DNA from: Zingiber officinale
Taxonomy: Eukaryota > Streptophyta > Magnoliopsida > Zingiberales > Zingiberaceae
Direction: 5' to 3'
Length of the DNA: 64,000 nt
Assembly: GCF_018446385.1 (NCBI RefSeq)
Contig: NC_056000.1
Span: forward strand, 49,446,722-49,510,721
Part shown: in pieces, positions 24,555 to 55,670 of the stretch
How positions within the stretch are numbered: the stretch's first letter is position 1
Layout: every line of letters begins with the position of its first letter
Made by a program: the position numbers and the translations under genes
The notes under the pieces: generated by a model
Databases searched by the model: none
What the model was told of the DNA's origin: nothing
Seen by the model: only the letters and a program-made list of their open reading frames with translations

Positions 24555-24930
24555 GATACTAGGCAAAAGTCTAGATAGGTCGAGAGCCAAAAGTGTAGTC
24601 GAAAGTCCCGAGGGTCAATCAGTCCAAGTAGGTCGGATGGACCAAACTTGGCAACAGTTAAACTCTCTCGAGTGGAGTAGTGAGGATGCACTCTCGGAAA
24701 GAGAGTAGTAAGCACCGGTCCAACGAGATCGGATCCTCTGGTCCCCTTGTCCTGGTCCACTCCTGGACCGGGACAAGGGGATTGGTGGGAGGCAATGACC
24801 CCCACCTGTTAATAGGTGGGGGCCCATTGCCTCCTACCAATACAAAAGTTGAACCATGAATTGGTCCAGTCTTTGTGGACCAAAAGATCCGCCCCCCGGT
24901 CCAACCTAAGGTCTAACTGGGGACTGGAAG
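24555..24930 (+). mobile_element. LTR fragment D, right part, with two adjacent hairpins
   Basis: This is the continuation of the LTR fragment at 18078 after the Copia insertion. It contains two strong inverted repeats (24743-24780 and 24781-24841), followed directly by ccaatacaaaag, a possible TATA-like motif. The usual LTR tail was not found, so the 3' end is lost or unrecognised. Confidence 0.5.
24743..24841 (+). other. Two tandem hairpins in LTR fragment D
   Basis: Hairpin 1 has 17-bp arms (24743-24759 and 24764-24780), one G/T-type mismatch and a 4-base loop ctcc. Hairpin 2 has arms 24781-24807 and 24814-24841, loop gttaat, with a one-base bulge and few mismatches. They abut with no spacer. 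Confidence 0.9.
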
Positions 24931-35296: not shown

Positions 35297-35639
35297 CATT
35301 CTTCTGCCGAGTAGTTAAATGAATGAATTTAGTAATTACGACGGATCTTTCGTAGTTTTGACCTCCTTTTAAACATCAATAATATTTAGTCTAACATTGC
35401 CCCGTAGAGTGAATGACCCTCCCTCTAAACGTCAATAATATTTAGTCGTAAATTACCTCTTGTAATTTATACTCCAATAGGTTGATCGGATTAGTCTCAT
35501 ATCTAAATGGTAGGCAAAAGATAATAATAGTTGTCAGTGGTGTATCATTGACTCTTTCCATTTACATCCTTTGTTTCAAAACGTAGAAAGAAAAGGCTAC
35601 TTACTTTTTAAGGGGCCCTGTAGCAATAGATCTACAATG
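35297..35639. other. Sequence of unknown origin left of element A
   Basis: A direct repeat of aaac(a/g)tcaataatatttagtc occurs at about 35368 and 35424. The phrase ctttcgtagttttga has inverted and direct relatives at 42790 and 43543. No gene is seen. Confidence 0.4.
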
Positions 35640-37449
35640 TGTTAGGATCTTTCGTACTGAGGCTAGAGAGGGGGGTGTGAATAGCCGACCCCAAATCGTC
35701 GCGTTTCTACAAACTAGGGTTAGCGCAGCGGAAAATGACACGTAGAAATGAAGGAAAAGAAGACAAACCTCAAACAAACCGATGTAACGAGGTTCGGAGA
35801 TTAGGGCTCCTACTCCTCGGCGTGTCCGTAAGGTGGACGAGTCCAGTCAATCCGTCGGTGGATGAGTCCCCGGAAAATCGGCTAATATGAACTCCTTCTG
35901 GGTGGAGAAACCTCGCCACAAAACTTGCAACAACAAGAAGGAGTACAAGAAATACAAGTAGAAAGACAAGAACAATGTACAAACACTAACTCGCCTTCTC
36001 GTCGACTGCCTGTGAAGCAACAACTTCTCGGACAACAGCAGCAGCTGACCGTCGACTGGAAGCTCACACGAAGCTTACTGGGGAGAGCTCAATAAAGCTC
36101 AGATCGCAAGCAGCAGCAAGCTAGAAGAAGGAGAAGAAGAAGAAGGAGGAGGCTCGCAGCAGCAGCCCTCCTTTTATAACCTGCGAAGAAAATGAAGAAA
36201 CACAGAAGAAATCTAGCCGTTGCGTCGCAACGGCTAGTGCCTGGATCGGTCTGTGGACCGATCAGGCTCCATGTGGATCGGTCCACAGATCGATCCATTC
36301 CCTAGCCTTCGCGTCTGTTCCATCTCTGATCGGTCCATGGACCGATCAGGGAACCTCCTGATCGGTCCATAGACCGATCAAGGAACCTCTTGATCGGTCC
36401 GTAGACCGATCAGGCTTCTCTTCTCCCGAGCTTCTTTGCGCTTCCTGATCGTTGTCTGATCGGTCTCCAGACCGATCAGATAACCTACAGTAGGCTACTG
36501 GATGGTTACTGATCGGTCTGGTGACCGATCAGGCTATCCAGTGTATCACTGGATCGGTCCCCAGACCGATCCAAACTCCCCAGCCCTAAACCTCAGGCTT
36601 CTACACCAACATCCGGTCAACCTTGACCTGTTGGTTCATCATTCCTAGCGTCTGGTCACTCCCTTGACCTGCTAGAATTCTCCACCAAGTGTTCGGTCAA
36701 TCCCTTTGACCCACTTGGGCTTTCCTCTTCGTGCCAAGTATCCGATCACTCCCTTGATCTACTTGGACTTCCCAACACCAGAGTCCGATCACCCTTGATC
36801 CATCTGGATTTTCCCTTGCCCAGCTTCACTCACCAGGACTTTCACCTAGCTTCACTTACTAGGGTTTTTACCTGGCTTCACTCACCAGGATTTCCACAAT
36901 GCCTGGCTTCACTCACCAGGACTTCCACTTTCACCTAGCTTCACTCACTAGGATTTTCACCTGGCTTCACTCACCAGGATTTCCCGACTGCCTGGCTTCA
37001 CTCACCAGGACTTCTCCGACTGCCTGGCTTCACTCACCAGGACTTTTCCCCGTGCCAAACTCCCTGTTTGGACTTTCCCCGTGCCAAGTCTCCATACTTG
37101 GACTTTCCGCGTGCCAAGCTACCTGCTTGGAGTTTTCCGTGCCAAGTCTCCATACTTGGACTTTTCGCGTGCCAAGCTACCTGCTTGGACTTTTCCCCGT
37201 GCCAAGTCTCCGTACTTGGACTTTTCCAGTGCCAAGTCTCCATACTTGGACTTTTCACCGAATCAGGTCAACCAGATCAACCTTGACCTACGGTTGCACC
37301 AACAATCTCCCAAACATCTATTCTTGTCAAACATCAAGAATAGAACTTCTCTTCTCGTCAAAACATCGTCAAACATCAAAATACAACTCGAGTCAGGTCA
37401 ACTCGAGTCGAGTCAACCAGGTCAACCTTGACCTAAGGTTGCACCAACA
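35640..37449 (-). repeat. Element A 3' LTR (1810 bp)
   Basis: Top strand starts tgttaggatctttcg and ends ggttgcaccaaca. A TATA box (minus, 36171-36179) lies next to eight palindromes (36240-36573). Tandem phrases follow: ggcttcactcaccaggactt (about 36825-37050) and gtgccaag...cttggacttt (about 37050-37255). Confidence 0.95.
36240..36573 (-). repeat. Element A LTR palindrome array
   Basis: Eight copies of GATCGGTC-N4-GACCGATC. The arms are almost invariant (one copy has cgatc in its second arm), while the central four bases differ: tgtg, caca-type, catg, cata, cgta, tcca, tggt, ccca. In sense orientation the array lies immediately upstream of the TATA box. Confidence 0.95.
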
Positions 37450-37464
37450 ATCTCCCCCTTTTTG
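37450..37464 (-). other. Element A polypurine tract
   Basis: Minus-strand aaaaagggggagat directly borders the 3' LTR. Element B has the same tract at 54850-54864. Confidence 0.85.
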
Positions 37465-37944
37465 ATGTTTGACAAAATTCATAATCAAGTTAGGTTAAAC
37501 CGATAACCTAACTTAGGTTTTCCAATTCCAATGTTCTCTCTAAACATTCTCCGGGCATTCTCCCATTCTCCCCCTTGGGACATCTCTCCCCCTTTTTGAC
37601 ATACATCAAAAAGAGAGAATCAAGGTCAAGAGTTTCTTCCCAATGAAAGTCCCATACCTTTCATTGAAACCCTTAATTTCCCCTTTGATACTAAACACAA
37701 CAATCAACTTAGTGACAATCCCATATCACTAATCTTCAAAAAGTCTTAAGGAGTAAAAACTCCCCCTAAAAGTCAACTCCCCCTTGACAACTCCCCCTAA
37801 AAGTCAACTCCCCTTAAAGGTCAACTCCCCCTTGAGCATTGCACCAACAATGTCTTGGAGAGTTTCAAACCTTTAGAAAACCCGAAACTCAACTCCCACA
37901 GCTGAAATTTCAGACCACAGTCGAACTTCAGCAAATTCAGCACG

Positions 37945-38034
37945 CCTGATCGGTCACCGGACCGATCAGGACCCCTCTGGATCGGTCCCCAGACCGATCC
38001 AGCCTTCCCTGGATCGGTCCAGTGACCAATCCAA
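37945..38034 (-). repeat. Element A internal palindromes
   Basis: Three further copies of the GATCGGTC-N4-GACCGATC palindrome, with centres accg, ccca and cagt (the last with one arm mismatch). They lie in the non-coding internal region, about 0.5 kb before the 3' LTR. Confidence 0.92.
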
Positions 38035-39307
38035 GTTCAGATCAGGCGGTTTCTGATTTCTTCTCTCCGAAATTCAGAAACTCACAACAAATTCCAGAAA
38101 ATTCGAAAAATTATGAAATTTTGAGGATACATTCCTCATAATATATACTATCATGGAAAAATAGTTTTAGATGAAAATAACTTCCATTTTCAACTCTTGA
38201 TACAAAGTTTGAAAGACTCTGAAATAGTTCAAGTTTAACTCAACTTTGTATCAACTTGCTCAATGATGAATGCTATCACTAGAAAAGCTTCATCAAGGTT
38301 TTTCAAATCAATTTTGAAATGATTTTAAACCTTTTAATTTAGGACCATAATCTTAGGGCTATATGCACATGACTTGTACACAAGCTTTCCCTATGATCCC
38401 CAATCTCTTGAATTAGGCTCATCTAGGTACAAGAACTATGTACCTTGATCCTAACTCATGATCCTAATATCTCACACACATCTAAAGTGTATCAAACACA
38501 TCCAAGTTAATTTTGATGTGAGATATGGGTTTAGGTTATCTTAGGCTAAGTTTTCATGCATTTTCTAAAACAACAACTTGATCTCCATATCAAATTGTGT
38601 TGTTTATCCTTAGATCAATTTCATTGATTATAGATGCAAGAGATGATGACATGGCATAAAATGATGTCATAAATAGAAGCATGTTCCAATTTCATGATGT
38701 CATGGCATAAAGTATAAAACCTAAAATAAGCATGACATATAATTAGCCTAAGCATGATCATGACATTTCGAATGATAATAAGTTAAACATGATGTCATGG
38801 CATGACATATGGCAAACAACCATGGTAAGTTAGCACAAATAAAATACCTAGATTACCTATCTAAGTATCCTTAACACCTTAGCTAACTTAAAATCTAAAC
38901 CTAGATTGCTCAAAGTGCTTTAAGAAAATGCCCAAACCTAAGTTGGCATTCCTATTTTTCTTGATTAATTTATGCCACTTAACATTAAGTATATCCTCAA
39001 ATATTGGCATATTTCATATTTCCTCAAGAATAGCACCTTTTTAATTAAGGCCTAGATTGTCTTAAATTTCCAAGAGAGTACCAAGACCCCAACTTGGTAT
39101 TTCTCTAGGTTTTCCTAACTTGTGCCAATAAAGGTTAAAGTCGATTTTTTTTTTTCAAAAATGGCACAATTTACTCTTCAAGGAGTAAATGATAAATCCA
39201 TTTCATTTTCAAAGATTCACAAAACCTTGAAAATGTTCCTTGAGTGTCAATTTCCTCAAAGTTGGGTTAACTACCCTTCTAATCGGAGTTGACACTCTCT
39301 AACCCAT

Positions 39308-40780
39308 CTATGGGGTAGAGAAGATACTCCTAGGAACCCAATACCTATTAGAGCTCATTGGGTTCACTAAATATTCACTAGGGATAACTTCCCTAGCAAC
39401 CCTCCTAATGACCCTCTTAGGCTTTAAAGCCTTGGCCATTTGAGACTCATCAAGATCAACTCTAAGGGTGACTCCCCTTGTGACCTTGGTGTTGGTCTTC
39501 CTAGCCCTAGGTGTTGTTCCATAATCGAATGAAACATTATGATAGGTGGGCTTGACCATTTGGGACTTAGGTTTGTGACCCAAACCTTTCTTGTCCTTGG
39601 GCTTTGAAATTTGACCCTTAGACCCTAGAGTTGACTTCTCTAAATTCTTTAGGGCATTTTCTAGAGTGTCAAGTCTTGATCTCAAGACTTGATTTTCTTT
39701 CTCTAAAACCTCAAGTTTTAATTTATCATTCTTTCTTGAGGTGTTCCTAGGCATATGTCTAGTTGTCTTGGGGTTTCTACCTAGATTTTCCTTAACCTTA
39801 GATGAGTTGATCCTAGGGTTGGCTTTCCTAGTGTTATCCTTATCTAGGCTAACATGTTTAGCACCTAAGCACATATATTGGTTCCTTAAGTTAACATGCT
39901 TATCATTATTAGCAATTGCAATAAAACTACTAGCATGTGTCTTATTAGAGTTGCAATAATGAGCTTTAAATGTTACCTTAGGGTTTGCCTTCGCTCCCCC
40001 TATTGACGTGCTCGGTCTCTTGTCCTTGTGAGGTTGCCTCCCCCTCGGACATTGACTCCTATAGTGTCCCCTTCGCTTGCATTGGAAGCACACCACGTGC
40101 TCCTTGCCTTTGCGTATCGGGACTTCGGCTTCCTTGACCTTTGGCGCCGGTGGAGACTTTCTAATCCTCTTTGGACACTTACTCTTGTAGTGCCCAAACT
40201 CCCTACACTCAAAACACATTATGTGTAATTTGCTTGAAATTAAAGTGTTTGAGTTACCTAGGGTTGAGGATGAATGTAGACTCTCTCCTTCATTCCTTCC
40301 GGAGGTAGATGCTTCTTCTTGCTCCAATCTTGAAGACGTGCTCTCCTCCTCTTCTTCCTTAGATGTTGAGTAACCCTCAACTTCTAATTCCTCTCTTCCA
40401 TGGTGTGAGCTTCTTAGCTCACTTGACTCCTCTTCATGGCTTGAAGTGGAGCTCTCCTCATGGAACTTGGCCAAGTTGTTCCACAATTCCTTGGCATTGT
40501 TATAACCACCTACCTTACACAAAATGTCATTAGGTAATGAAAATTCAAGAATTTTCGTTACCTCATCGTTGATTGTGGATTGGTGGATTTGCTCCTTTGT
40601 CCACTTTTTCTTCTCTAAGGTTTCTCCGTCTTTATCCACCAGATGAGTAAACCCTACCTGCACACAACTCCAATTTTCAAGGTTAGTCATAAGAAAATAC
40701 CTCATTCTTACCTTCCAATACTCGAAGTCGCAGCACTCGTAGAATGGTGGAAACGTGATGTCTTCTCCGAGTCGATCCAT
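39308..40780 (-). CDS. Element A gag (490 aa), intact, two zinc knuckles
   Basis: Gag forms the particle that packages element RNA. The N-terminus is Copia-type gag (FEYWKVRMRYFLMTN near 19-33, KELWNNLAKFH near 97-107). A Ser/Glu-rich linker (about 109-175) follows. Then come two CCHC knuckles, CFECREFGHYKSKC (189-202) and CFQCKRRGHYRSQC (231-244), a basic region and a predicted coiled coil (LEKENQVLRSRLDTLENALK, about 353-375). It ends with NRYWVPRSIFSTP, a tail shared with element B. The frame is uninterrupted. The start lies about 40 bases after the primer site. No protease follows. Trans-mobilisation by an autonomous relative is likely but not shown. Confidence 0.9.
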   Translation of the reverse strand: MDRLGEDITFPPFYECCDFEYWKVRMRYFLMTNLENWSCVQVGFTHLVDKDGETLEKKKWTKEQIHQSTINDEVTKILEFSLPNDILCKVGGYNNAKELWNNLAKFHEESSTSSHEEESSELRSSHHGREELEVEGYSTSKEEEEESTSSRLEQEEASTSGRNEGESLHSSSTLGNSNTLISSKLHIMCFECREFGHYKSKCPKRIRKSPPAPKVKEAEVPIRKGKEHVVCFQCKRRGHYRSQCPRGRQPHKDKRPSTSIGGAKANPKVTFKAHYCNSNKTHASSFIAIANNDKHVNLRNQYMCLGAKHVSLDKDNTRKANPRINSSKVKENLGRNPKTTRHMPRNTSRKNDKLKLEVLEKENQVLRSRLDTLENALKNLEKSTLGSKGQISKPKDKKGLGHKPKSQMVKPTYHNVSFDYGTTPRARKTNTKVTRGVTLRVDLDESQMAKALKPKRVIRRVAREVIPSEYLVNPMSSNRYWVPRSIFSTP

Positions 40781-40820
40781 TCTCTAGCTTGTGCTCCCCC
40801 GGGTGTTAATCCGACGAAGA

Positions 40821-40840
40821 GCAACCTTGCTCTGATACCA
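40821..40840 (-). other. Element A primer binding site (initiator-Met tRNA)
   Basis: Minus strand reads tggtatcagagcaaggttgc, two bases inside the 5' LTR, the usual primer site of plant Copia elements. Confidence 0.92.
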
Positions 40841-40842
40841 CT

Positions 40843-42617
40843 TGTTAGGATCTTTCGTACTGAGGCTAGAGAGGGGGGTGTGAATATCCGACCCCAAATC
40901 GTCGCGTTTCTATAAACTAGGGTTAGCGCAGCGGAAAATGACACGTAGAAACGAAGGAAAAGAAGACAAACCTCAAACAAACCGATGTAACGAGGTTCGG
41001 AGATTAGGGCTCCTACTCCTCGGCGTGTCCGTAAGGTGGACGAGTCCAGTCAATCCGTCGGTGGATGAGTCCCCGGAAAACCGGCTAATATGAACTCCTT
41101 CTGGGTGGAGAAACCTCGCCACAAAACTTGCAACAACAAGAAGGAGTACAAGAAATACAAGTAGAAAGACAAGAACAATGTACAAACACTAACTCGCCTT
41201 CTCGTCGACTGCCTGTGAAGCAACAACTTCTCGGACAACAGCAGCAGCTGACCGTCGACTGGAAGCTCACACGAAGCTTACTGGGGAGAGCTCAATAAAG
41301 CTCAGATCGCAAGCAGCAGCAAGCTAGAAGAAGGAGAAGAAGAAGAAGGAGGAGGCTCGCAGCAGCAGCCCTCCTTTTATAACCTGCGAAGAAAATGAAG
41401 AAACACAGAAGAAATCTAGCCGTTGCGTCGCAACGGCTAGTGCCTGGATCGGTCTGTGGACCGATCAGGCTTTATGTGATCGGTCCACGCACCGATCCAT
41501 TCCTAGCCTTCGCTTCTCTCCGATCGGTCCATGGACCGATCAGAACTCCGATCGGTCCAGATCGATCAGGAACCTCTTGATCGGTCCGTAGACCGATCGG
41601 GCTCTTCTCCCGAGCTTCTTTGCGCTTCCGATCGTTGTCCGATCGGTCTCCGCACCGATCGATAACCCATGAGGCTATCGATGGTTACCGATCGGCCGGT
41701 GACCGATCGTGCTATCGATGTCATCGATCGGTCCCCACCGATCCAAACTCCCGACCCTAAACCTCGGCTTTACACCAACATCCGGTCAACCTTGACTGTT
41801 GGTTCATCATTCTAGCGTCTGGTCACTCCCTTGACCTGCTAGAATTCTCCACCAAGTGTTCGGTCAATCCCTTTGACCCACTTGGGCTTTCCTCTTCGTG
41901 CCAAGTATCCGATCACTCCCTTGATCTACTTGGACTTCCCAACACTAGAGTCCGATCACCCTTGATCCATCTGGATTTTCCCTTGCCCGGCTTCACTCAC
42001 CAGGACTTTCACCTAGCTTCACTTACTAGGGTTTTTACCTGGCTTCACTCACCAGAATTTCCACAATGCCTGGCTTCAGTCACCAGGACTTCCACTTTCA
42101 CCTAGCTTCACTCACTAGGATTTTCACCTGGCTTCACTCACCAGGATTTCCCGACTGCCTGGCTTCACTCACCAGGACTTCTCCGACTGCCTGGCTTCAC
42201 TCACCAGGACTTTTCCCCGTGCCAAACTCCCTGTTTGGACTTTCCCCGTGCCAAGTCTCCATACTTGGACTTTCCGCGTGCCAAGCTACCTGCTTGGACT
42301 TTTCCCGTGCCAAGTCTCCATACTTGGACTTTTCGCGTGCCAAGCTACCTGCTTGGACTTTTCCCCGTGCCAAGTCTCCGTACTTGGACTTTTCCAGTGT
42401 CAAGTCTCTATACTTGGACTTTTCACCGAATCAGGTCAACCAGATCAACCTTGACCTACGGTTGCACCAACAATCTCCCAAACATCTATTCTTGTCAAAC
42501 ATCAAGAATAGAACTTCTCTTCTCGTCAAAACATCGTCAAACATCAAAATACAACTCGAGTCAGGTCAACTCGAGTCGAGTCAACCAGGTCAACCTTGAC
42601 CTAAGGTTGCACCAACA
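40843..42617 (-). repeat. Element A 5' LTR (1775 bp)
   Basis: Nearly identical to the 3' LTR except between about 41465 and 41815, where changes cluster at CAG and CTG sites. TATA box (minus) is at 41374-41382. Confidence 0.95.
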
Positions 42618-42622
42618 CAATG

Positions 42623-43949
42623 GTGTACCATTGACTCTTTCCTATCGGTCGTACTTATCGGATGTCCTATGGTAAGAGCACACGAGCACGTCGCTTCTCT
42701 CGTCCCATAAGCAAAAATCGTTCCTCTCTCTCTCTCCCTTAAGGTCAAGCCTAAGCAACTTAATTAGAGTATAGTTCATGGCTATGAATCATTCAAAACT
42801 ACGAAAGAACTTCTCTTAGCGGATTACAGCGTGAATGACATTTAAAATGTAGAAAGATTTACCCCTAAATTACGGTAAAGCAAGCCACCATCAGATGCCC
42901 TAACGGATGCCCTAACAATTGAGACTATCCTTATGTCTACAATCATCAGATTACACTATTACGTTCATGGTATTTCATTCAAAACGTAGAAAGATCTACC
43001 CAAAATGATCCCATCATTGCACTCAGCCCTCTCCTTATCAGTCAAGCTATCTAACCTTGTCGTTATCACTTGCCCCTTTTCTTTTCTCGCGCAACTAGTG
43101 CTGATGAAATGCCTTTTGACCAAGAGAAAGAGATGGCCAACTCTTTACGGGAGTGCGGGAAGAATGATGAAGGACCACCTTCCTCCATTGCCACGTAAGC
43201 TAATGAAGGTTCGGTTTTGATATATAAAGCTCTTTGACTTTCATTTGTGTTGGCCGGAGCCGTCATTTGCCCCTTCTAATGCTTGGAAAGGATTGCTAAC
43301 ATTCGACATAATTGGAATTGAAAGGACAGTCAGTTGTAGCTGTCAGTGAGCTTTCCTTGGCAGCTCTTGAGTGCATTCCTTCAGGTCGGCTTGTTTTTCT
43401 CTTTCTCTGTAGCGTATAGTAAGAATGCAGATTTTATTTGGAATCCTCTCTTCCTAATGAAAGGAAAAGAAAAAGTATGAGAATTTATTGCAACATGGGC
43501 TCGCTTTATCGTAATTTAAGGTATTTTCGATTGACTAAGGTTAGATCTTTCATAGTTTTGAAGTCATTCACGCTGTAATCTGCTCTGAGCCGAAGTGCAA
43601 CTTGCGAGATCGAAATAAAGTTAGGGAGATTGCAGACATAAGGATAGGCTCGACCGTTAGGGTAGAGTGAATGACGTGTGTCATTTACGCAATTACTATA
43701 ATCTGTTGTGGAAGAGGTACAAGCATTATTTTCATTTATCGCGACGTGGGCTCCTATAAAGAGCAATGCCAAGAGTGGATTGTGGTCCCGCGAAGTACTT
43801 AGTAAGTGCTCTGGTAGCCTTCTTTTATTTCTTCAATTGAGTACAGGAGGGTATTGTCAAATAGCTCGACCGTTAGGGCCGACCATAGGGGCGAATGATA
43901 ATGATATTTATGCGATCGACTGATAGGAAAGAGTCAATGGTTATAAAAT
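42623..43949. other. Sequence of unknown origin right of element A
   Basis: No supported gene. Phrases are repeated in both orientations: ttcaaaactacgaaagaact with gattacagcgtgaatgac (42787-42841) reappears inverted at about 43540-43585. The phrase gctcgaccgttaggg recurs at 43648 and 43865. The motif ttgactctttcctatcgg near 42628 has an inverted partner at 43917. It looks like an old repeat that element A entered. Confidence 0.4.
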
Positions 43950-46625
43950 ACGATACCCAAATAATAATTAAATAATAATGTTATTTGAGAAAATAATCTT
44001 ATTTGAATTTTTAGAAATTTTCTAGGAATTAATCGGAGTTCGTATGACGAGTTTAAGAGGATAAATTATTAAGCCAGGGGAAAGCTTGTTTAAGCTACCC
44101 CATTTAAACGAGAAAATGTTTAATATTTTTTTATATTTTTCTTTTTCTTTTTCTTTTTCTTTTTCTTTTTCTTTTCTATTCTCTCACGCGTGCCCTAAGC
44201 CACCCGACAACTTCTCCTCTCCCCCAAACCGACGGCACCGAGCCGCCGATGCAACTCTTCCCCTTCTCCACGAGTACAAAGCCTCAAGCCGATCTCGATT
44301 CCTCTCTTCTCTCCCATCACCCTCTTTGTCTAGTCTAGTTCCTCGGCCACCACCCGACGCCACTGCAGTTGCGCGTCATCGCCATCGTAGTCGCACGTCA
44401 TCACCAGCTTCCCACTTCACTGGAAACTGAGCACCCGAGTTCCTTTTCGGTCGTGCCCTAGATCTGTCTGACTCGCGTCATCCCCACTGTGTGCTAACAG
44501 CCGGCATCGTTGTTCATCCACACGAGCAGTCGACGCCGAGGACCCCTCTCTTTCTTCTCCCTTCCCCCTCACTATGGTCACATCTCTGTTGTTACCCCAT
44601 TCCCTAAATCTGATCTCTATCTACGAGTAAGGAATTGTTCACAGCCAGCACCTTTCTGTGCTACTCAGATCAGGAGCCCTTGGAGAGTCGCCTCCTGATC
44701 ACCTTGGTTCATTACTGCCTTTCCTTTGCACGAGGTCGAGTTAGTGATGTTGCAACCACTTGTTGAGTGAGAGTTGCTGATCAGAGTCACTGCTGGAGCA
44801 ACGAATAGCCACTGGAGAAGGAGGAGGCATGGAGGGTTGCAGATTTCATCAGTTGCATTAATGCTCGGCTGATTTTAGGATAGCAAGTGCTAATTTGGAA
44901 TACTTGGCAGAGGCAGTAGCTTTGCCTAATTTCTATCGTAACTTCCAACTTCTCTGGAGTCAACAGAGGTATTTCTAGAGTTGAATGAGTTATTAAGATT
45001 AAAGTTAAGAAAGATTAGGAATGATTTATCCAATTGGTTGTCGTGATAATTAGGGTTAAACTAGTTTAACTCTAGTGGGCAGTTAATTAATGACCGTACT
45101 TTGATTAGGGGTTATCCTAAAAATGTTTGAGGATTTTATTTAGCTATTTGCTATATTGGTAATTAGCTAAGTACATTTATGTAATCGCAAGACATTGATT
45201 CGAGACGGACGTCTCGACGTAGGATTTCTGGTCACGAGACGAGTACATCTGACTTATCTTCTTGATATGATCATTTTTGAGATGCATAGTAGTTTATAGC
45301 TAGTAGTAATGATTGAGTTTACTTCTGTTTTGGTATGTCACTTCTTGGTTCTTATAGTATTTGTTATGCATTCATACTTATATTCTCTTGTTTATTGCCA
45401 TGTTTACTCATGTTCATAGAAATAGTGACATACATTGCCCTATTGTGTAGTAGTCTAGTTATTTGATATGTCTGACTTGTGTACATAGTTTATTGTTACC
45501 TACATCATTGTATGAATTTATTTTCTTTTTGGTACATTTTATATGGAGGTGTATACTGTCAGTATCTACAGGTTTAGCATCATGCACCATCTTGCATGAT
45601 TGCATGCTGAGTGATTATCGGCTCCATTATTGTTGAGCACATCGCCAGTTACATGATCTACACACACAACCACTCATGGATTAGTGATATATCAGACAGG
45701 GTGTGTACAGTTTGCTCTGTCAGGGCTTCGTTGGTCCGCTCATGGGTAGCGATGACTGCAGCATGTAGCGGACAGGGATTCCTCCCCTTGACCATGATAC
45801 AGGGAGATAAGAGCTTAGGCTCCCCCACTATGTTTGGATTTACCTCAAATTCATACATAATTCATTTCATTTACCTCAAATATGTGTCAACAGATTCAAC
45901 TCCGATGAAGAAGAGGAGGCAGTGGAAGACCTGCAACCGCTCAGCGACTGGTTTGTGAGAGGGCAGTCAGCTTCTACGATCGGGAGGCGACAGTGGCGTC
46001 GGGTGTAGGGCAGCGCAGCAGGACCACACTGTCAGGGCGATCAACGCACAAGCATCAGATCTAGGGTTCGGCTGGCCGATCGTGGACCTCGGCATCGTGG
46101 TCGGCGGCTCTTGGGCAGAGACGGAAGAGGAGAGAAAGAGGAAGGAGACGAGAATCGGGGCAGAGGTGATCGACGTCGATGCCTGGCGACCGGTAAATGG
46201 TGGTGCGACCTCAGGTGGCGGCGGCGAGTTTCTGGTGTCCGCAAGGAAAAGGGAGCAGGAGCTCGGCCGGTGGTGGCTCGAGTGTCGCCGGCGCCGCGAT
46301 GAAGAAGGGGGGAGGTCGGCGCGAGCTCGGGGAAGAGGAAGAGAAGAGGAAGGTGTGGCGGTGAAGGAGAAGAGGAGGAGTTTGGCGATTTGGGAGAGGA
46401 TGGAACGTGCGAGGGAAGGTTAGGGCACGGGAGAGAAAAGAAAAAAAAACATTTAAGGAAATTAGACATTTCCTCGTAATCGGATAAGTTAAACAGATTT
46501 TACCCAGATCAAGTAATTCATCCTCTTAATCTACACCATACAAATTCCGAATTTTTTTTGAAAGTTCTTTAAAATTCTGTTAAGATTATTCGTCAAATAA
46601 ACACGTTATTATTTTATTATTATTT
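43950..46625. repeat. Unrecognised ~2.7-kb repeat with long degenerate inverted ends
   Basis: The left 43950-44115 and right 46430-46625 segments are imperfect inverted copies. Shared phrases include aaataataataaaataata, gaataatctta and gattaagaggatgaatta, up to the start of a T/C-rich tract. Just inside each end lies a short GC-rich, Pro/Ser-rich frame on opposite strands (44086-44430 + and 46041-46469 -). These follow a (TTTTTC)n or GA-rich tract and are probably not genes. The middle (45140-45960) reads like LTR-derived repeat DNA. It could be a long-TIR DNA element or two facing LTR fragments. Confidence 0.4.
44139..44176. repeat. (TTTTTC)n microsatellite
   Basis: About six perfect hexamers on the plus strand. 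Confidence 0.85.
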
Positions 46626-47339
46626 GTTACAATATTTTATAAATTAATTCTACGTTAATTATAATTATTATATATTTTCTTACAATCCTATCTAAAGCTC
46701 CATTGAATTTTATTTTTTTTTCATTACATTATTGATCTTCTCATATTCCCAATCATTTTCTTACGTTTCATCCTCTATATTTGTTTTGTTCTTCGTCGCC
46801 TCATCGGTGATTCTCTCAGTCTCAGAAGACGTCCTTCGCCTTCCTTGATCATCCGATAATATTTTTTTCGATCTTTTGTTTATTGAAATGATCTTTATTA
46901 TTCTATATAAATAATAAATTATAGATGAAATGGATTCAAATATCACTAAAAAATATATTATTTGCAATTGTATAAATTTTTTTTCCATTCTTTCTTTTTG
47001 GTTGCAAGCAATTATATCATACAGTCACAAACCTGATTTATGCACTTAAAAACTCATAAAATATAATTTATAGATTTTTAATACTCTTTAATTACAATTA
47101 TCTGATTTATTATATATATACTTGTTAAGTGCAGTTTATTATAAACTACTTAAATTAATCGAAATTTAATATTATGTATTTTCTTATTATATTTGTGTAG
47201 GTAGTAGTCAAGTTTGAAATATCATCAAATTAAAACTACACGACTTAAATCAAATTTTATTGTTAATTTAATTCTAAGTAATTTTATTTTGATAAAATAA
47301 TAGGAACTTATATTTTCTTTTTTTTTATTATTTTAATAT
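46626..47339. other. AT-rich sequence, no gene seen
   Basis: The only notable content is a short C/T-rich patch (46735-46850). It is probably the outer part of the hAT element that follows, but I could not find a terminal repeat. Confidence 0.35.
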
Positions 47340-48001
47340 AAATATGCCGGTGGAAACATATGATTCTAGATATATAAAATGTATGAAGAAAAAAAAATAG
47401 AAGAATTTATTCAATCTCATAGATTTATTATTAATAATCAAAATCAAAACTTAAAAAATAATATAATTGAAAATTTAAATGAAAAACTAATTAAATTTTC
47501 ACATAAAGATAATACTTTAGGATAAAAAATATCAAGAACTTTCAAATGATAATAAATTGAATTTATCAAATAATAATATTAATGAAGAAAATAATTGCAA
47601 TTCAGGAGAAGGAAAAGACAACTTAATATATCATGAAGATAATTTTTTTTTAATAATATTGATGAAATTATTATTCAAAATATATATGATCCAACATAAT
47701 GGAAAAATATACATACATATTTAATAGATTTATTAGTTGAAAAAGGCTTAATTAGAGAAATCAATATTTCTTTTTCAAATGATGAAAATTCTAAATATTT
47801 TTCTATGATTCATTATATTTAAAAATTGTCAAATGAAGAAAAACATGATAGAAAACGATTAATATATTCAATAGAATTAGATAAAGTATTTTATTTTTTA
47901 AAAAAATTATTTAGTCAAAAATAAATTACAATTCAATTAACAAACGAAGGGTGTAGAGATTGGAAAAATCATAGTGCCAAACTTAGAAGTCATGAAATAA
48001 G

Positions 48002-49548
48002 TGTTGGTGCAATATTCTCTAGGTCAAGGTTGACCTGGTTGACTGAGCCTAAATTGGGTCAAACTCGAGTCTTGATGTTTTGATGGTTTTGATGTTTGGA
48101 TTTCGATGTTTGACAATACATAGAGACAAGACATGGAGATTGCAGATGCAATTGTTCATGTGGGAGATTGTGAAGAAGAGTCAAGTAGGTCAATGTTGAC
48201 TGGATACTTGATTGGAAAATACTGGTGAGTGAAGCCAGGTGAAAATCCTAACTGGGAGGTTAGGCAGACTAGAAAGTCCTGGTGAGTGAAGTCATGCAGT
48301 TGTTGAAAGACCTAATGAGTGAAGCTAGGCAGTAAGGAAAGTCCTGGTGAGTGAAGCCAGGTGAAAGACCTAGTGAGTGAAGCTAGGCAGTAAGGAAAGT
48401 CCTGGTGAGTGAAGCCAGGCAGAGGAGAAGTCCTAGTGAGTGAAGCTAGGCAGAAGGGAAGTCCTGGTGAGTGAAGTCAGGCACAGGAAATCCAAATGAT
48501 TCAAGGTTGACCAGACATCTGGTGGAAGTCTAAGTGGGTCATGGAGGATCAGACACTTGGCACGAGGAGAAAAGTCCAAGTGGGTCAAAGGGATTGACCG
48601 GACACTTGGTGAGAGAGTCCTAGCAAGTCAAGGGTGGCCAGATGCTAGGCATGATGTACCAACAGGTCAAGGTTGACCGGATGTTGGTTTAGGGTGATTT
48701 GAACTTGGTTTTGGGCAAAAACAAGGAGCTGGATCGATCAGTCGATCGATTGGCTCATGCTCAATCGATTGGCTGATCGATTGGGTGAGTCCTCGCGACA
48801 AAGGCTTCCCCAATCGATCAGCCAATCGATTGGGGAGAATTCCCGATCGCACAGAAAGCCTCCCAATCGATCGGCCGATCGATTGGGAGCCTCCAATTGA
48901 TTGGCTGATCGATTGGGAGCTGCGATTTCACGGAATAAGCCTGGATCGATCGACCGATCGATCCAGGCAATTCCTAAGAGCACAGAGGCGCTCTAGATTG
49001 ATCAGTCGATCGATCTAAAGCCTCCCCAATCGATTGGGAGCAATCCAATCGATTGGGATCCGACCGTTGGCGCAGATATTAGCCGTTGGCGAGCGTTTCT
49101 TCGGCACGACTTCGATTCCACTCCACGGGCGATCACAACAGTTCTCCACAGCGATCTTCTTCACTCTCACGCCAGGTCTTGAAGATTCTTGGAAGCATTT
49201 CCAAGTCAAGAGGTGAATCTACAGCAAGAAGAAGAAGCTAGGGTTAGGGTTTCTTGTGTAAACCGTGTAAGCTTTCCCTTGTATTTTTTTCTCTTTGTTT
49301 CTTATTGTAGGGCTTCTCCGCCTTCGAAAGTTACCGAGAAGGAGTATTTTCATAGTGGAGGGTGCGTGAGTGTGTGGATCCTTGGACTAGTCACCTCTTC
49401 TTGAGGTGGATACCAAGTAAATCCCTAGAGTTAGCGTTGTGTGTTTGTTTTCTTATATTTCCGTTGCACATCATTGCAAGAGGCAAGCAACGACGAGCAC
49501 GAGATCGCGAAGAGCTATTCACCCCCTAGCTACATTTCGGTCCCAACA
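48002..49548 (+). repeat. Element B 5' LTR (1547 bp)
   Basis: Begins tgttggtgcaatattctct and ends tttcggtcccaaca. Repeats of agtcctggtgagtgaagcca (about 48225-48485) are followed by the palindrome array (48730-49060). Confidence 0.95.
48730..49060 (+). repeat. Element B LTR palindrome array
   Basis: About nine palindromes built on CAATCGATC...GATCGATTG or the variant TGGATCGATC...GATCGATCCA. One (48863-48888) is a perfect inverted repeat of over 24 bases centred on ggcc. Centres vary between copies. The position in the LTR (about 47-69 percent of its length) equals that in element A. A clear TATA box is not visible; cagatatta at about 49072 is a weak candidate. Confidence 0.92.
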
Positions 49549-49550
49549 AG

Positions 49551-49570
49551 TGGTATCAGAGCAAGGTTGC
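49551..49570 (+). other. Element B primer binding site (initiator-Met tRNA)
   Basis: tggtatcagagcaaggttgc, identical to element A, two bases inside the 5' LTR. Confidence 0.92.
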
Positions 49571-49671
49571 TCTTTACCGGAATCATCGCCGGAAGGGGCA
49601 AAAAGCTAGAGGGTGAAGAAGTTGAAGCAAATTCATCAAGTCAAAGAATTCATCATGAAGCTCAAATTCAA

Positions 49672-51207
49672 ATGGAATTCGGAGATGGATTCGGATTCGA
49701 CACGAGGGTGCCTCCACCATATGTATCCACGAGTTTCGATTTTTGGAAATCTAGAATCGAAAACTTTCTTATGATGGAGATAGAGCAATGGTTTGCTCTC
49801 ATGGAAGGCTTCGAAGCTCCAAGAAATTCAAAAGACAAGATCCTCAAGAAAAGCAAATGGAGTCAAGAACAAATTCAAAGGTGCGAGGCGAATGACAAGG
49901 TAACCAAGTTATTGGTTAACTTATTGCCAAGCACAATTCTTTGTAAAATTGGAGAATTTGAAGATGTCAAGGAGCTTTGGAGCAAATTGGCAATGATTCA
50001 TAAGATCCCCTCTACTGTACCGATTCAAGAAGAATCCAAAGAGGGTGACTCCGTGAGTCAAGATCAAGAGGAAGTGGACTCCGAAGTTGAGAGATGTTCA
50101 ACTTCCGAAGAAGAAGTCCAAGAAGCCTCATCTTCAAAGGAATGCAATGAAAAGAGCAAAGAGGGAGCATACTCTTTGTTCCATGTACAAGATGAAGATG
50201 ATGAAGCCTCCAACTCTAGGATTGAGGGGGAGCGATTTTCGTTGACATCGGTTCATGAAGAAAAAGAAGTCTCCACATCCGGGTCAAGAAAAGAAGAGGA
50301 TGAAGAAGCTTCCACCTCCACAAGTCGAGTCAAATCTATTGGAGGAGCATCATTGTCAGAAAAAGAAGTTTCTACCTCCGGATCAAAAGGAGAAGATGCC
50401 ATCCCTACACATGAAGGTATAAATATTTCAAATAAAAATAAACAACATATCATATGTTTTGAATGTAGGGAACATGGGCACTACAAGAGCAAATGCCCTA
50501 AATTGGCCAAGAAGAAGGGCCAAGTGGCACCAAAGGGCAAGGAGAAGCCCAAAGAGACCACTCCCGGAACAAAGAAGAGGAAGGGGCACATTGTGTGCTT
50601 CTCTTGCAATCAAAAGAGACACTATAGAAGTCAATGTCCCAAGGAGAAGAAAGCGGTCAAGGCTCAAGGCTCAAGGAGGAAGCACAATTCAAGGGGGAGC
50701 CTCCAAGGTAAAACGCAAGGTATCATTATTGAGCTTACCCCTTTAAATAATGGTAAAAAGCATGTTAGTTCTAATTTATATCATTTTAATGCTATTTACC
50801 ATAGAAATAGGAAGCATGATAACATTAAGGAAAAACATGTAGCTCTTCATGCTAAAACTACCACACCTAGGTCTAGGAAGGTAGATAAAAATTTAGGCAA
50901 GAATTCTAAGAATTTTAGTTACAAGCCTAAAAATAAAATTGCTCAAGGATTAAATGAAAAACCAAAAACTAAGGATTTAATGAGTGAAAATCGAATCTTG
51001 AGGTCAAGACTTGATAAATTAGAAAAGACCCTAAAAAGGATGGAAAATATCCTAAAAGGGCAAAATGAGCAAAATCTAAGTTTAGCACAACAAGGGTCAT
51101 CCAAGGGTCATAAAGGTTTGGGATACAAACCTAAAACCAAAAAGGATGCGCCTTCTTACCATAGAGTTCCATATAGTTATGGAACCAACCCTAGGCCTAG
51201 TGATTAA
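49672..51207 (+). pseudogene. Element B gag, cut short by a nonsense codon
   Basis: A 511-codon frame starts at MEFGDGFGFDTR (the open frame itself reaches back into the LTR). It has Copia-type gag (FDFWKSRIENFLMMEIEQWF), an acidic Ser/Glu-rich linker of repeated VSTSGS-like phrases, CCHC knuckles CFECREHGHYKSKC and CFSCNQKRHYRSQC, and a coiled coil (SENRILRSRLDKLEKTLKRM). A TAA at 51205-51207 stops it, but the same frame stays open to 51474. That extension encodes repeated KKSKKVTKKVTRKA phrases and the tail NRCWVPRSIFSIP, which matches the C-terminus of element A gag. So about 88 C-terminal residues were lost by one mutation. Confidence 0.88.
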
Positions 51208-52760
51208 GCCAAAAATACTAGGGGAGTTATCCCTAGAAGTATTTTTGCAACACCAAATGTGACCAAGACTTCTAAGAAGTCTAAGAAAGTCACTAAGAAG
51301 GTCACAAGGAAAGCAATCCTTACGGTTGACCTAGAAAATGTGACCAAGACCCCTAAGAAGCCTAACAATGTCACTAGGAAGGTATCTAGGAAGGCTATTC
51401 CTAGTGAGTACCTAGAGCATCCAAGGAGCACCAATAGGTGTTGGGTTCCTAGGAGCATTTTCTCTATCCCTTAGATGGGTTAGAGAGTGTCAACTCTAAT
51501 TGAAAGGGTAGTTAACTCAATCATGATGTTGGCACTCTAAGAGCATTTTCAAGGTTATTGTTAACTTTTGAAAATGATAAGGATTAATGGCTTGCTCTTG
51601 GAAAGAGTAAGATGTGCCATAATTTGAGTATTTGGATATAATTTTAATTGGCACAAGAAATCAAGTCTAAAGAAATGCTAAGTTGGGATGTTGACATTTT
51701 ATTGGGAAGTTAAAGGTAAATCTAAGTCTTATTTTAATTTGTTACTCTTTAAAAGAGTAATATGTGTCAAAATTTGAGGAATATGCTTAATTTAAATTGG
51801 CACAAATTAGGAAAAGTAAAAGAAATGTCAAAATTGGGGTTTGACATTTTCTTGGGACATTTTGGGCAATGTAGGGTTTAAACTTTAAGTTAGCTAAGGT
51901 TTAAGGATACTTAGATAGTTATTCTAGGTATTTTATTTATGCTAATTTGCCATGCTTTGTTTGCCCATCATATGTCATGACATCATATTTATTCTTGCAC
52001 TCATGACTTATTATGAAAAATACAAAAATATCATGTCATGCCATACATACATCATGTAGTTCTAGGAAATTTTCTTTTGAAAATTATTTATCTTTGATGT
52101 ATGTCATATCGCATCATGCATAATTTTTAAATTCCTTGAAATTAAGGACAAATGACATTTATTAACAAGTAACATCCTTGGTGGATGTTCATAACCTCAA
52201 AATACCTAAATAGATATGCATGATCCTTAGATTAAGACAAAACCAAAGTTTACATCTCACTAAGAACTATAAGGTGACTTGTATGTGGTTTCGTACACAT
52301 TGAATACAAGTGAGATGTTAGGATAATGAACAAAACTCAAGATATTGATTTAGTGCATTCTTTTGAGTTTTAAGTTCATCAAAACACATAGTTATGTATT
52401 TTCCGATCATTGGGAAAGCTAATGTACAAGTTATGTGCATTGAGACGAAAGAACATGGTTGGAAATTGATTTTGAAAATGATTTTAAAATACTTTTGGAA
52501 AACCTTGATGAAGACTATCTTTTGATAGTGATCATCATTGAATAGTTAGACACAAACTTGAAGAAAATACTAAGGTTTTTCCAAGTTTTCAAATTTATGT
52601 CAATCTTCGAAAATAGAAAGTATTTTCATAGAAAACTATTTTTTTTGATAATATATACCCTAAATAATGTCTACATGAATTTTCATGATTTTTGAAATTT
52701 TATAAAATTTTCTAGGGGTTTCTGAAGTTGACTGAAATGAAATTTCAGCAACTTCAGACC

Positions 52761-52940
52761 TTCAATCGATCACCCGATCGATTGAAGGGTCTCAATCGAT
52801 TGAGCGATCAATTGAGAGTGAGCTTCTCGCGAATAGAAGCTCACTGGATCAATCCATTGATCGATCCACACTAGCTGAATCGATTAGTGGATCGATTCAA
52901 GCAGGTTTAATCGATTAGGACTCAACTCCAATCGATTGGG
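52761..52940 (+). repeat. Element B internal palindromes
   Basis: About five to six copies of the element B palindrome type, for example caatcgatcacccgatcgat and ctgaatcgattagtggatcg. They are flanked on the left by cagcaacttcagacc and on the right by a tgctgattttggctg phrase, both with relatives at the matching place in element A. Confidence 0.88.
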
Positions 52941-53625
52941 AATGCTGATTTTGGCTGGGAAAGCTTGATTTCAGCATTTTGAACCACCTTTAGTCTAGGT
53001 AACCATCCCTTACCCCTCAAAACATATTTATATACATTTAGGGGGAGTTTTCATGATGAAAACAAGGACGAATTGGTTAAGGGAGACTAAGTAGAGGTTT
53101 GGGTTGAGGTTTGGTTTCAATATTAAATTTTTGAACCTCAAACTTCTAAATTTGAGTTTCCTAAAGATTTAGGGATTCCAAGTCATTATTGGTGCAATGA
53201 CAGAAGTTATGTGCATGTCTTTAAGGGGAGTTACTCTTTAAGGACATGAAAATCTATTTTTTTTTCATACACCTTGGAAGGTGGTTAACCTTCTTTAGCG
53301 AAAATGCTCAAAGTTGGGCATTTGAATGTAATGAAGAGTGGATATCTTCATTATTCATGTGATGTATGCTCACGGATGAACATTTGATGACAAGGAAGGG
53401 TATGTGACCTTCATTTGAATCGTGTGTGAATATACCAAGTGGTATATGCTCAAGGATGAGCGTTAAGAATAATGAAGGGTATGAGACCTTCGTTATTATG
53501 TTGTGAACAACGAGTGAAGTTGTAAACAACATTGAGTAACTCTTCAGGGGGAGAGTTTTTGATGTGTGCCAATAGGGGGAGAATGTAGGATTAAGTTAGA
53601 CCTTCATTATCTAAGAGGGAGGTTG

Positions 53626-54740
53626 TGTTGGTGCGGTTAGCACTAACGGTCTAACTCAGGTTTTGATGAATGACAAATTATGTTAAGTTAGGTTTGTCGT
53701 TATCTAACACTCTGATCGAGTGTACAGGCTAAGTCCAGACAGGTCGACGAGCTGACCGAATGTCTGACACGAAGTCCAAGCGGGTCGACGGGCTGACCGG
53801 ACCCTTGTCACGAAGTCCAAATGGGTCGAAGGGTTGACCGGATATTTGGCACGAAGTCCAACTAGGTCGACGGGATGATCGGATAGCTGGCGAGAAGTTC
53901 AGACGGGTCGAAGGGCTGACCGGACGTCTGGCAGGTGAGTAAAGGTAAGTCACTGGAAGGGAGTGACTGTGAGGACGCGTTCCCGGGAAGGGAACATTAG
54001 ACGTCGATCCGCTTAGATCCATTTCGAATATCTAAGTCGAGATTGTGACTAGATTCCGGTTTCGGAAAGACGGAATCTAAGTCATACTTTTTATATTGAA
54101 CTTATAAACTATGCTAACACTTTGTTTTGCAGGATATACATTATCTATTTGCCTCAGACTAACCTTGTCTTGTAGGAAAGATGTTCCCTGGAGAAAGGTG
54201 GTCGGGGCGCCCGGAGGTCTGGGCGCTCGGAAGGGATCCGGGCGCCCGGGAGGCAATTTTTATCCTATCACATCGTCGCCACGTGAAGCTCGCTGGTTGG
54301 ACCTGCCACGTCTCATCAGGGCGCCCGGAAGGGATCCGGAGCGCCCCGAGCCTCATATAAAAGAAGGGTCAGGGGTGGAGCTCAAAACAACAACTCTGAT
54401 TTGAAGAACTCGCTCTCCTGTGCTCCTACGACGTTGCAAAGCTCCGACAAACGCGCTGCTTCTCTTTTTAAGTCTCTTATTTTGTCGGTATTGCCTTAAT
54501 TCTTTCATTAGCATTTTCTGTAATTAGTTTGTAATATCTTTCGAACTGCTAGCGAATTGCCCATCGAAAGTACCCTCGTGTGCGAGCCTTGGAGTAGGAG
54601 TCGCCAAAGGCTCTGAACCAAGTAAAACTGGTTCTTGTGTTAGCATTGCATTGTTTTACTTTTCCGCTACGTTTACTCTTTTCGAACAAATTTTTTATAA
54701 TCGATATTCACCCCCCCCTATCGAAGTCTACGATCCAACA
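53626..54740 (+). mobile_element. Solo LTR (1115 bp) nested in element B
   Basis: Begins tgttggtgcggttagc and ends ctacgatccaaca, with exact duplications ggttg at 53621-53625 and 54741-54745. It contains repeated aagtcca...gggtcgacgggctgacc phrases (53730-53930). GGGCGCCC-centred palindromes (about 54205-54345) follow, and directly after them the TATA box catataaaag (54354-54363). It is left by recombination between the two LTRs of a third related family. Confidence 0.92.
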
Positions 54741-54849
54741 GGTTGCCCTCTAGAAAAGGAGGAGAATGAAGGAAATCCTCATTCATATTAGCATAAAGGA
54801 GTTTGAGGCTATGAGATTAGCCTAACTTAAATGAGATATTGTCAAACAT

Positions 54850-54864
54850 CAAAAAGGGGGAGAT
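54850..54864 (+). other. Element B polypurine tract
   Basis: aaaaagggggagat borders the 3' LTR, as in element A. Confidence 0.88.
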
Positions 54865-55670
54865 TGTTGGTGCAATATTCCCTAGGTCAAGGTTGACTTG
54901 GTTGATTGAGCCTAAATTGGGTCAAGGTCGAGTCTTGATGTTTTGATGGTTTTGATGTTTGGATTTCGATATTTGACAATACATAGAGACAAGACATGGA
55001 GATTAAGCCTGGATCGATTGGGAGCTGCGATTTCACGGAATAAGTCTGGATCGATCGACCGATCGATCCAGGTGATTCCCAATAGCACAGAGGCGCTCTA
55101 GATCAATCTGTCGATCGATCCAAAGCATCCCCAATCGATTGGGAGCAATCCAATCAATTGGGATCCGTCCGTTGGCGCAGATATTAGCTATTGGCGAGCG
55201 TTTCTTCGGCACGACTTCGATTCCACTCCACAGGCGATCACAGCAGTTCTCCACAGCGATCTTCTTCACTCTCACGCCAGGTCTTGAAGATTCTTGGAAG
55301 CATTTCCAAGTCAAGAGGCGAATCTACAACAAGAAGAAGAAGCTAGGATTAGGGTTTCTTGTGTAAACCGTGTAAGCTTTCCCTTGTATTTTCTTCTCTT
55401 TGTTTCTTGTTGTATTGAGAGTATTGTAGGGCTTGTCTGCCTTCGGTAGTTACCGAGAAGGAGTGTTTTCATAGTGGAGGGTGTGTGAGTGTGTGGATCC
55501 TTCGACTAGTCACCTCTTCTTGAGATGGATACCAAGTAAATCCCTAGAGTTAACGTTGAGTGTTTGTTTTCTTGTATTTCCGCTGCACATCATCGCAAGA
55601 GGCAAGCAACGACAAGCACGAGATCACGAAGAGCTATTCACCCCCCTGTAGCTACATTTCGGTTCCAACA
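54865..55670 (+). repeat. Element B 3' LTR with ~740-bp internal deletion
   Basis: Starts and ends like the 5' LTR, but jumps from gacatggagatt (about 55003) to the palindrome region (cctggatcgattgggagctg, about 55011). The tandem repeats and most palindromes are missing. The remaining copies (about 55045-55165) carry several point differences. Confidence 0.92.

Follow-up and report, generated by a model that had tools for sequence, protein, structure and literature searches.

Sireviruses (Ty1/copia), which make up about 21% of the maize genome (PMC3599292), are known to carry palindromic repeated motifs (RMs) both in the long terminal repeat (LTR) and in the linker of the internal region (Bousios et al., 2010; PMC2829016). 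In the accessible part of the 2010 paper, nine tabulated elements show one motif per element over LTR and linker; linker RMs are listed only alongside an env gene (13 elements), and the linker boxes are absent from the four RM-bearing elements without env. The same part of the paper reports no conclusive internal promoter and leaves open the expression of the envelope-like gene. In the available descriptions of the maize Sireviruses Ji and Opie, fast-evolving palindrome clusters (CACCGGACNNNGTCCGGTG) are placed in the cis-regulatory part of the LTR (PMC5311732, PMC10760457). Here we describe two related elements, A and B, in a 64,000-nucleotide stretch of ginger (Zingiber officinale) DNA (contig NC_056000.1; hereafter the window). 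Both carry palindrome arrays in LTR and linker, and the arrays of the two sites go together and agree in motif type.

Elements A and B are called gag-only because tblastn searches of their internal regions gave matches at E < 0.1 only in the gag region, with no pol or env remnant. The search covered these two elements of the window; the queries were one copia pol protein, its gag-integrase part, the partial integrase and gag of a sampled locus (L010, see below) and two env-like proteins, whose best matches reached only E 0.49 and 0.71. The Gag proteins of A and B are 36% identical (E 3e-77). Gag-only plant LTR retrotransposons constitute a structural class, TR-GAG, which A and B resemble in having LTRs, a primer binding site (PBS), a polypurine tract (PPT) and gag, with pol absent. 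Beyond the features of that structural class, they have the non-coding signatures of Sireviruses and palindrome arrays in pairs.

The junction of 5' LTR and PBS has the Sirevirus form CA/A(T or G)TGG-TATCAGAGC in both elements, with AACAAGTGGTATC at 49545 (plus strand) and 40834 (minus strand) and the PBS at 49551 and 40829; the G variant of this junction is on the published list, as far as that list is available (PMC2829016). Multiple linker PPTs (AGGGGGAG; in B at 53040, 53546, 53574 and 54855), one of them 10 bp before the 3' LTR, and an AT/TG attachment site form a further Sirevirus signature, the junction of PPT and 3' LTR reading AGGGGGAGAT/TGTTGG. Around it an inverted repeat was recognized by eye, with gtcaaacatcaaaa before the PPT and ttttgatgtttgac inside the LTR of A, the partner inside the LTR of B being a shorter or displaced match, also by eye. 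The polyC integrase signal is present as well, CACCCCC starting 29-38 bp from the LTR end in A, in B and in a solo LTR, C, nested in B. A palindromic array stands in the LTRs of both A and B; a TATAAA box follows it in A only, none being found in the LTRs of B, and in the accessible text the RM-bearing Tnd-1 is also published without a TATA box (PMC2829016). When the PPT/LTR pattern was searched for in viral_contigs, the single match was an unrelated phage contig (L001).

The arrays of A and B are most likely Sirevirus repeated motifs. The RMs of the 2010 paper are likewise palindromic; there, the LTR boxes occupy the upper half of the LTR, ahead of the TATA box, and the linker boxes precede env (PMC2829016). 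Among the published motifs, Osr10, Osr8 and Vitis share the arms of A's palindrome, CGGTC...GACCG, around different middle bases, and ACAATCGATTGT of Tnd-1 contains CAATCGATTG of B. Another LTR box type, TTCGGTCGACCGAA, was seen at one sampled ginger locus (L038, +800 to +1232) and contains the Vitis motif CGGTCGACCG. The Ji and Opie clusters differ from A and B in motif and, in the available descriptions, are placed in the LTR only. Unlike the env-less Sireviruses of the accessible published table, A and B, the two elements searched for env and pol, have linker boxes; so do 13 sampled elements of the A and B types. Gag-only families that keep a linker array in the absence of env are exceptions to the published rule that linker arrays accompany env, which an env-bearing relative of A (L060, below) does follow.

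Allowing up to two mismatches, the window contains 24 matches to GATCGRTC-N4-GAYCGATC where shuffles predict 0.02: in A eight times in the 3' LTR (36244-36571), three times in the linker (37948-38031) and five times in the 5' LTR, and in B four times in the 5' LTR and twice each in the linker and the 3' LTR. A chance origin of the arrays is rejected by these shuffles, and ten Markov sequences gave 1-12 palindromes against 62. The first-pass annotation of the window had counted eight copies in each LTR of A, which holds for the 3' LTR and fails for the 5' LTR with its strongly altered array; its three internal copies were borne out. For B, where about nine LTR and about five internal copies had been given, a shorter core yields 7 in the 5' LTR and 4 in the linker, and a palindrome scan about 8 and 4-5. 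The array was correctly placed at 47-69% of LTR length (48-67% in A, 47-68% in B), and likewise the internal array at 0.5-0.8 kb before the 3' LTR, the linker array ending 496 bp before it in A and 805 bp before it in B, the latter figure discounting the nested LTR C by arithmetic. Homologous flanks around the arrays were confirmed by BLAST on the 5' side (79% in the LTR, 71.5% in the linker); on the 3' side, the match is only 23 bp (linker), a 32-bp match between the LTRs being the last unit of A's array itself and not 3' flank. The 3' LTR of B lacks the stretch matching 48142-48906 and keeps about three units. In regular stretches of A's array (e.g. 36337-36411 and 37945-38034), the half-sites alternate in orientation at 16-bp steps, so that neighbouring units can pair in two registers, as hairpins or dimer sites within or between units. 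The palindrome had been thought to be replaced between A and B; in the cores, however, a single pair has changed, from G-C to A-T, and the remaining differences lie in outer pairs.

Genome-wide counts refer to the window's own assembly (3.09 Gb, 211 contigs), in which the window lies on contig C15. The motif of A has 156,429 exact copies there, and the PPT/LTR junction AAAGGGGGAGATTGTTGG has 21,541 + 21,797, the reversed control giving 0 in either case; the motifs are therefore not private to single elements, as had been supposed. Sampling took the first 30 junctions from a list of the first 100 on contig C1, with 7.1 kb of sequence for 20 of them and 2.75 kb for the other 10. Arrays of A or B type were present at both sites in 13 of the 30, and the types agreed in all 13, six being of A type (L016, L019, L020, L021, L024 and L027) and seven of B type (L015, L017, L018, L025, L026, L028 and L034). 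Some of these are neighbours or share an LTR: a gap of 3.2 kb separates L017 from L018, which have the same orientation head to tail, and one of 2.3 kb lies between the facing elements L027 and L028. Matching of types within elements had been proposed as a check on the pairing, and LTR and linker arrays indeed go together in the 13 sampled elements, in both elements of the window and in the nine published ones of the accessible table (PMC2829016). Members of other families were also found in the sample: L011 has GGCGCC boxes in both LTR and linker, and L023 has GTCGAC in the linker and in two of its three LTR boxes, the third being ATCGAT. Given the GGCGCC and GTCGAC cases and the nine published elements, the match between LTR and linker looks general.

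No linker array was seen in the stretches fetched for 13 other loci (L012, L013, L022, L029-L033 and L035-L039), nine of which covered 1.4 kb upstream, later extended for L035, L036 and L038. The upstream boxes of L012 and L029 lie by the 5' LTR and PBS, and for L038 the 5 kb upstream, which partly belong to another element, also showed no linker array. Locus L010 was dropped as a matched pair, since its upstream array lies in the 5' LTR of a gag-pol neighbour in reverse orientation; it is still within the counts for array distances, covariation and wobble, and as an LTR array in the recount without altered arrays given below.

For each linker array the nearest LTR array, by mean best unit distance, was of the same type in 16 of 16 elements (A and B of the window, the 13 sampled and L010). 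Within a type, the element's own LTR array was not significantly nearer than the others (A, p = 0.13; B, p = 0.18; L010 included). The match is one of families, and a match at the level of single copies was not found. In a tree of the linker flanks, built without support values, A and B form separate clades with L010 apart, so the contrast between them may reflect a single joint switch. The types are not cleanly separated in a tree of the 400 bp past the LTR array, with L027 among B and L026 outside B; the loci of L027 and L028, which face each other, overlap, and this stretch of L027 is probably part of L028.

The palindromes are kept intact by paired changes. Compensatory changes, another check suggested by the annotation, were found in the arms, the outer base pairs covarying within arrays. 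The set comprised 163 units from 32 arrays, found by the core only, of which 162 were usable. Outer pairs 1-3 were Watson-Crick in 147, 131 and 134 of the 162 units, against 125.5, 88.8 and 99.2 when right arms were shuffled within arrays, counts that are not independent because the units of an array are related by duplication; for each pair, none of 500 shuffles reached the observed pairing. Since consensus error is possible in the altered arrays, the values were recomputed without them. Pairs 2 and 3 of A were then Watson-Crick in 44 and 42 of 50 units against 31.0 and 30.2, pair 1 being invariant, and pairs 1-3 of B in 76, 73 and 75 of 88 against 55.9, 49.2 and 56.6; all five exceed all 5000 shuffles. 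The four arrays of the window alone (22 units) gave 21, 20 and 17 against 17.2, 11.5 and 13.0; of 5000 shuffles, 172, 1 and 387, respectively, paired as well as this.

The context of the boxes was examined at both sites. A search with the env-like open reading frame (ORF) of L011, itself a weak Pfam Transposase_32 match (E 6.7e-9, below the curated cut-off), scored 111 of 18,274 candidates, with matches on contigs C1-C22. The best 16 of the 111 (L040-L055) are copies with 94-100% identity. In each of them TATAAATAG lies upstream of the ORF and is accompanied by 1-7 exact GGCGCC boxes, L046 and L052 having only one. In 14 of these 16 best-scoring loci the distance from the start of the last core, exact or with one mismatch, to the TATA box is 16 bp, L041 and L053 being degenerate there. 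The order of GGCGCC boxes, TATAAATAG and env-like ORF is common to L011 (-3000 to -1566) and to the 16 loci. The same program, run on 13 LTRs, gave a box in 10; the distance to the TATA box is 16 bp in L011, L035 and L036, 17 bp in L012, L013, L014, L032 and L037, and 36 bp in L022 and L033; the window's C also gave 36 bp. In L022 and C a one-mismatch box was also read by eye at 16 bp, the program having chosen the exact box at 36. The six LTRs examined from the C family (L011, L014, L022, L035, L036 and C) consequently have a box with at most one mismatch 16 bp (five LTRs) or 17 bp (L014) before TATA. Unlike the published picture, as far as it is available (PMC2829016), a TATA box follows the pre-env array in this family. 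In the three LTRs tried, LTR and internal modules align over 37-62 columns (62 in L011 and 44 in L036; in L035 the alignment falls at another box pair), so that either module may be a copy of the other.

The gag-pol element beside L010, with Pfam gag and integrase matches, has an LTR 70-78% identical to that of A. Downstream of it on the same strand, L060 (C1:228400-234000) contains an A-type array (229219-229590), env-like frames (230030-231159), PPTs and an LTR with A-type boxes; its longer env-like frame is 35% identical to that of L011 (E 1e-25) and matches Pfam Transposase_32 at E 0.0026, below the cut-off. We infer that L060 continues the gag-pol element beside L010. Most simply, the linker array of A would then be the pre-env array of such an env-bearing ancestor; outside the array and PPT, no flank homology was found between A and this relative.

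On balance, the arrays are probably clusters of dyad-symmetric DNA boxes at two promoters, that of the LTR and one before env, with a shared predicted factor, and have been kept in gag-only derivatives. Both clusters would carry one box type as the same nuclear factor, or set of factors, would read both; the box type of a lineage would drift by paired changes and both clusters would follow, and reverse transcription may have assisted by now and then exchanging units between the two. A and B would be gag-only derivatives that kept the pre-env cluster without pol or env, env having presumably been lost in their ancestors. An enhancer-like protein site was one of two functions suggested by the annotation, and it proved the better of the two: A- and C-type LTR arrays precede a TATA box, as does the internal module of the env family, although B-type LTR arrays do so in only one of seven elements. 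A narrower version, with two copies of one promoter module locked together by the shared factor and the C-type module, with its box 16-17 bp before TATA, lying both in the LTR and ahead of the env-like ORF, is put forward only tentatively.

Several observations weigh against the two-promoter explanation. In all 14 A- and B-type elements (L010 dropped), the 250 bp that follow the linker array contain no TATA[AT]A, so that these linker arrays are no more than candidate promoters; nor does TATA[AT]A stand right after the pre-env array in the A-type env-bearing relative, and the shortage of TATA boxes after B-type LTR arrays, just mentioned, points the same way. The best-scoring 16 env-like loci are close copies of each other. 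With one clade for each type and some samples neighbouring or sharing an LTR, the A/B agreement represents few independent events. L035, an env-bearing member of the C family with a broken env-like frame, has no GGCGCC between -4712 and -1311. L014 has an LTR of GGCGCC type but GTCGAC boxes 2.5-2.8 kb upstream; this may be a mismatch, or the upstream array may belong to another element.

It is conceivable that the arrays are merely homogenized without any function, template switching of the reverse transcriptase copying units between the unique 3' (U3) part of the LTR and the linker, and hairpin-templated correction keeping the palindromes perfect; the mechanism by itself would then account for the type match as well as for the paired changes. 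Exchange between the arrays has happened: one 12-nt spacer is identical in the linker of the env-bearing relative and in A's LTR array, another linker spacer is one mismatch off, and these two matches among 18 distinct linker spacers compare with 0.09 expected (0 of 500 shuffles). The alignment of the C-family internal and LTR modules beyond the boxes and the strong variation between the arrays of A's two LTRs also agree with homogenization. However, wholesale recent copying does not explain the LTR/linker match: within a type, the distance from a linker array to its own LTR array is not significantly smaller than to the rest, 15 of the 18 linker spacers are at least 4 bases off the LTR spacers and one has no LTR spacer of equal length, and the cores agree while most linker spacers do not resemble LTR spacers. 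A like palindrome-to-TATA spacing also recurs at two predicted promoters, and homogenization alone appears unlikely.

The second function suggested by the annotation was that of RNA hairpins for packaging or dimerization, located toward the 3' end of the genomic RNA. Widened to include strand transfer, and with the types matching because linker and U3 arrays would pair together, it fared worse and is in our judgement very improbable. Given a transcription start downstream of the TATA box, the 3' part of the genomic RNA would include both arrays, arm covariation extends beyond the core, and on the sense strand G-T exceeds A-C (56 against 28 in all units; 52 against 28 in distinct units, p = 0.0097), but the excess is confined to B (42 against 13), clean A arrays giving 5 against 5. 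Palindromic tetraloops, at 18 of 163, are slightly above the 1 in 16 (about 10) expected with even base use; palindromes of the GGCGCC, GTCGAC and TTCGGTCGACCGAA types are loopless, and the C family has a TATA box at its internal array. Least probable of the explanations considered is a host response, in which hairpin transcripts or dense CG/CHG sites would be hot spots of small interfering RNA and methylation and the persistence of the arrays a by-product. The palindromes of maize Sirevirus LTRs are small-RNA hot spots in the available accounts (PMC5311732, PMC10760457), but a host response leaves the LTR/linker match and the TATA spacing unexplained, and such marks should be lost, not kept; it may nevertheless operate alongside a promoter role.

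If the narrower version is correct, the module ahead of the env-like ORF would be the internal env promoter that was proposed but not identified in earlier Sirevirus work, and gag-only families would keep their second array for a use other than env. The kind of array itself is known; the linker arrays of env-less elements, the type match on sampled copies and the TATA-containing internal module with the spacing of the LTR are new. A matching array and TATA box at both predicted promoters makes the idea of an internal promoter testable, and the type match over families offers a natural series for finding the box-binding factor.

It should be noted that the two LTRs of A differ in 58 of 518 columns inside the array and in 12 of 1294 outside it. 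Comparing 41447-41790 with 36240-36620, the 5' LTR array is 36 bp shorter than the 3' LTR array and has 9 CWG against 26 and 42 CG against 27. A-type arrays at other loci (L010, L016, L019, L020 and L021) also occur in the CGATCGGT or [TG]GATCGGT state. The change from CWG to CG is either Nanopore consensus error at densely methylated sites or real mutation limited to the array. Error-prone reverse transcription was our first reading; because the ginger assembly that fits the window's genome was made from Nanopore reads, according to the available part of its description (PMC8342452), consensus error is now judged to be just as likely. Arrays of this kind may accordingly be wrong in nanopore-based assemblies.

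The coordinates of the features are collected in Table 1. Element A is flanked by CATTG target duplications (42618-42622 and 35635-35639) and element B by ATAAG (47997-48001 and 55671-55675). The solo LTR had been described as carrying palindromes directly before a TATA box, which its GGTTG duplications and the GGCGCC boxes before TATAAAAG at 54356 bear out.

Table 1. Features of elements A, B and C in the window.
Feature	Coordinates	Strand	Remarks
Element A, whole	35640-42617	minus	gag-only; 5-bp target duplications
A 5' LTR, TGTTGG...AACA	40843-42617	minus	1775 bp
A 3' LTR	35640-37449	minus	1810 bp
A 3' LTR palindrome array	36244-36571	minus	8 units GATCGGTC-N4-GACCGATC
A 5' LTR palindrome array, altered	41447-41743	minus	5 matches
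TATAAA box of A 3' LTR	36173-36178	minus	73 bp past start of the array's last core motif
A linker palindrome array	37945-38034	minus	3 units, 32-bp spacing
A gag ORF	39308-40780	minus	490 aa, zinc knuckles
A AGGGGGAG polypurine tracts, seven	37452-37832	minus	terminal one, 37452-37459, before AT/TG of 3' LTR
A primer binding site TGGTATCAGAGC	40829-40840	minus	after CA/AG
Element B, whole	48002-55670	plus	gag-only; 5-bp target duplications
B 5' LTR	48002-49548	plus	1547 bp
B LTR palindrome array	48732-49057	plus	7-8 units, CAATCGATC/GGATCGATC type
B gag ORF	49660-51207	plus	zinc knuckle
B linker palindrome array	52759-52945	plus	4-5 units, CAATCGATC/GGATCGATC type
B 3' LTR	54865-55670	plus	most of U3 array missing
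Solo LTR C, nested in B's linker	53626-54740	plus	GGTTG duplications
GGCGCC-type boxes of C	54205-54345	plus	before TATAAAAG at 54356

A further fragment, D (24743-24841), had been read as part of an LTR, which its ends do not confirm, TGTTGG/CCAACA being absent within 24.0-26.5 kb and plus-strand TATA[AT]A within 250 bp; strong palindromes are present. The region 24735-24850 holds a long imperfect palindrome, GGAGGCAATG...CATTGCCTCC, beside GTCCAAG...CTTGGCA repeats resembling those of the LTRs described here. Elsewhere in the window, positions 1883-2305 contain a perfect palindrome, the arms of which are 22 bp long, as well as three hairpins whose stems include CCGACGGAA. A 930-bp block is present twice (30486-31414 and 33506-34434, 94% identity) and consists of tandem units of about 66 bp, part of which reads as an open frame.

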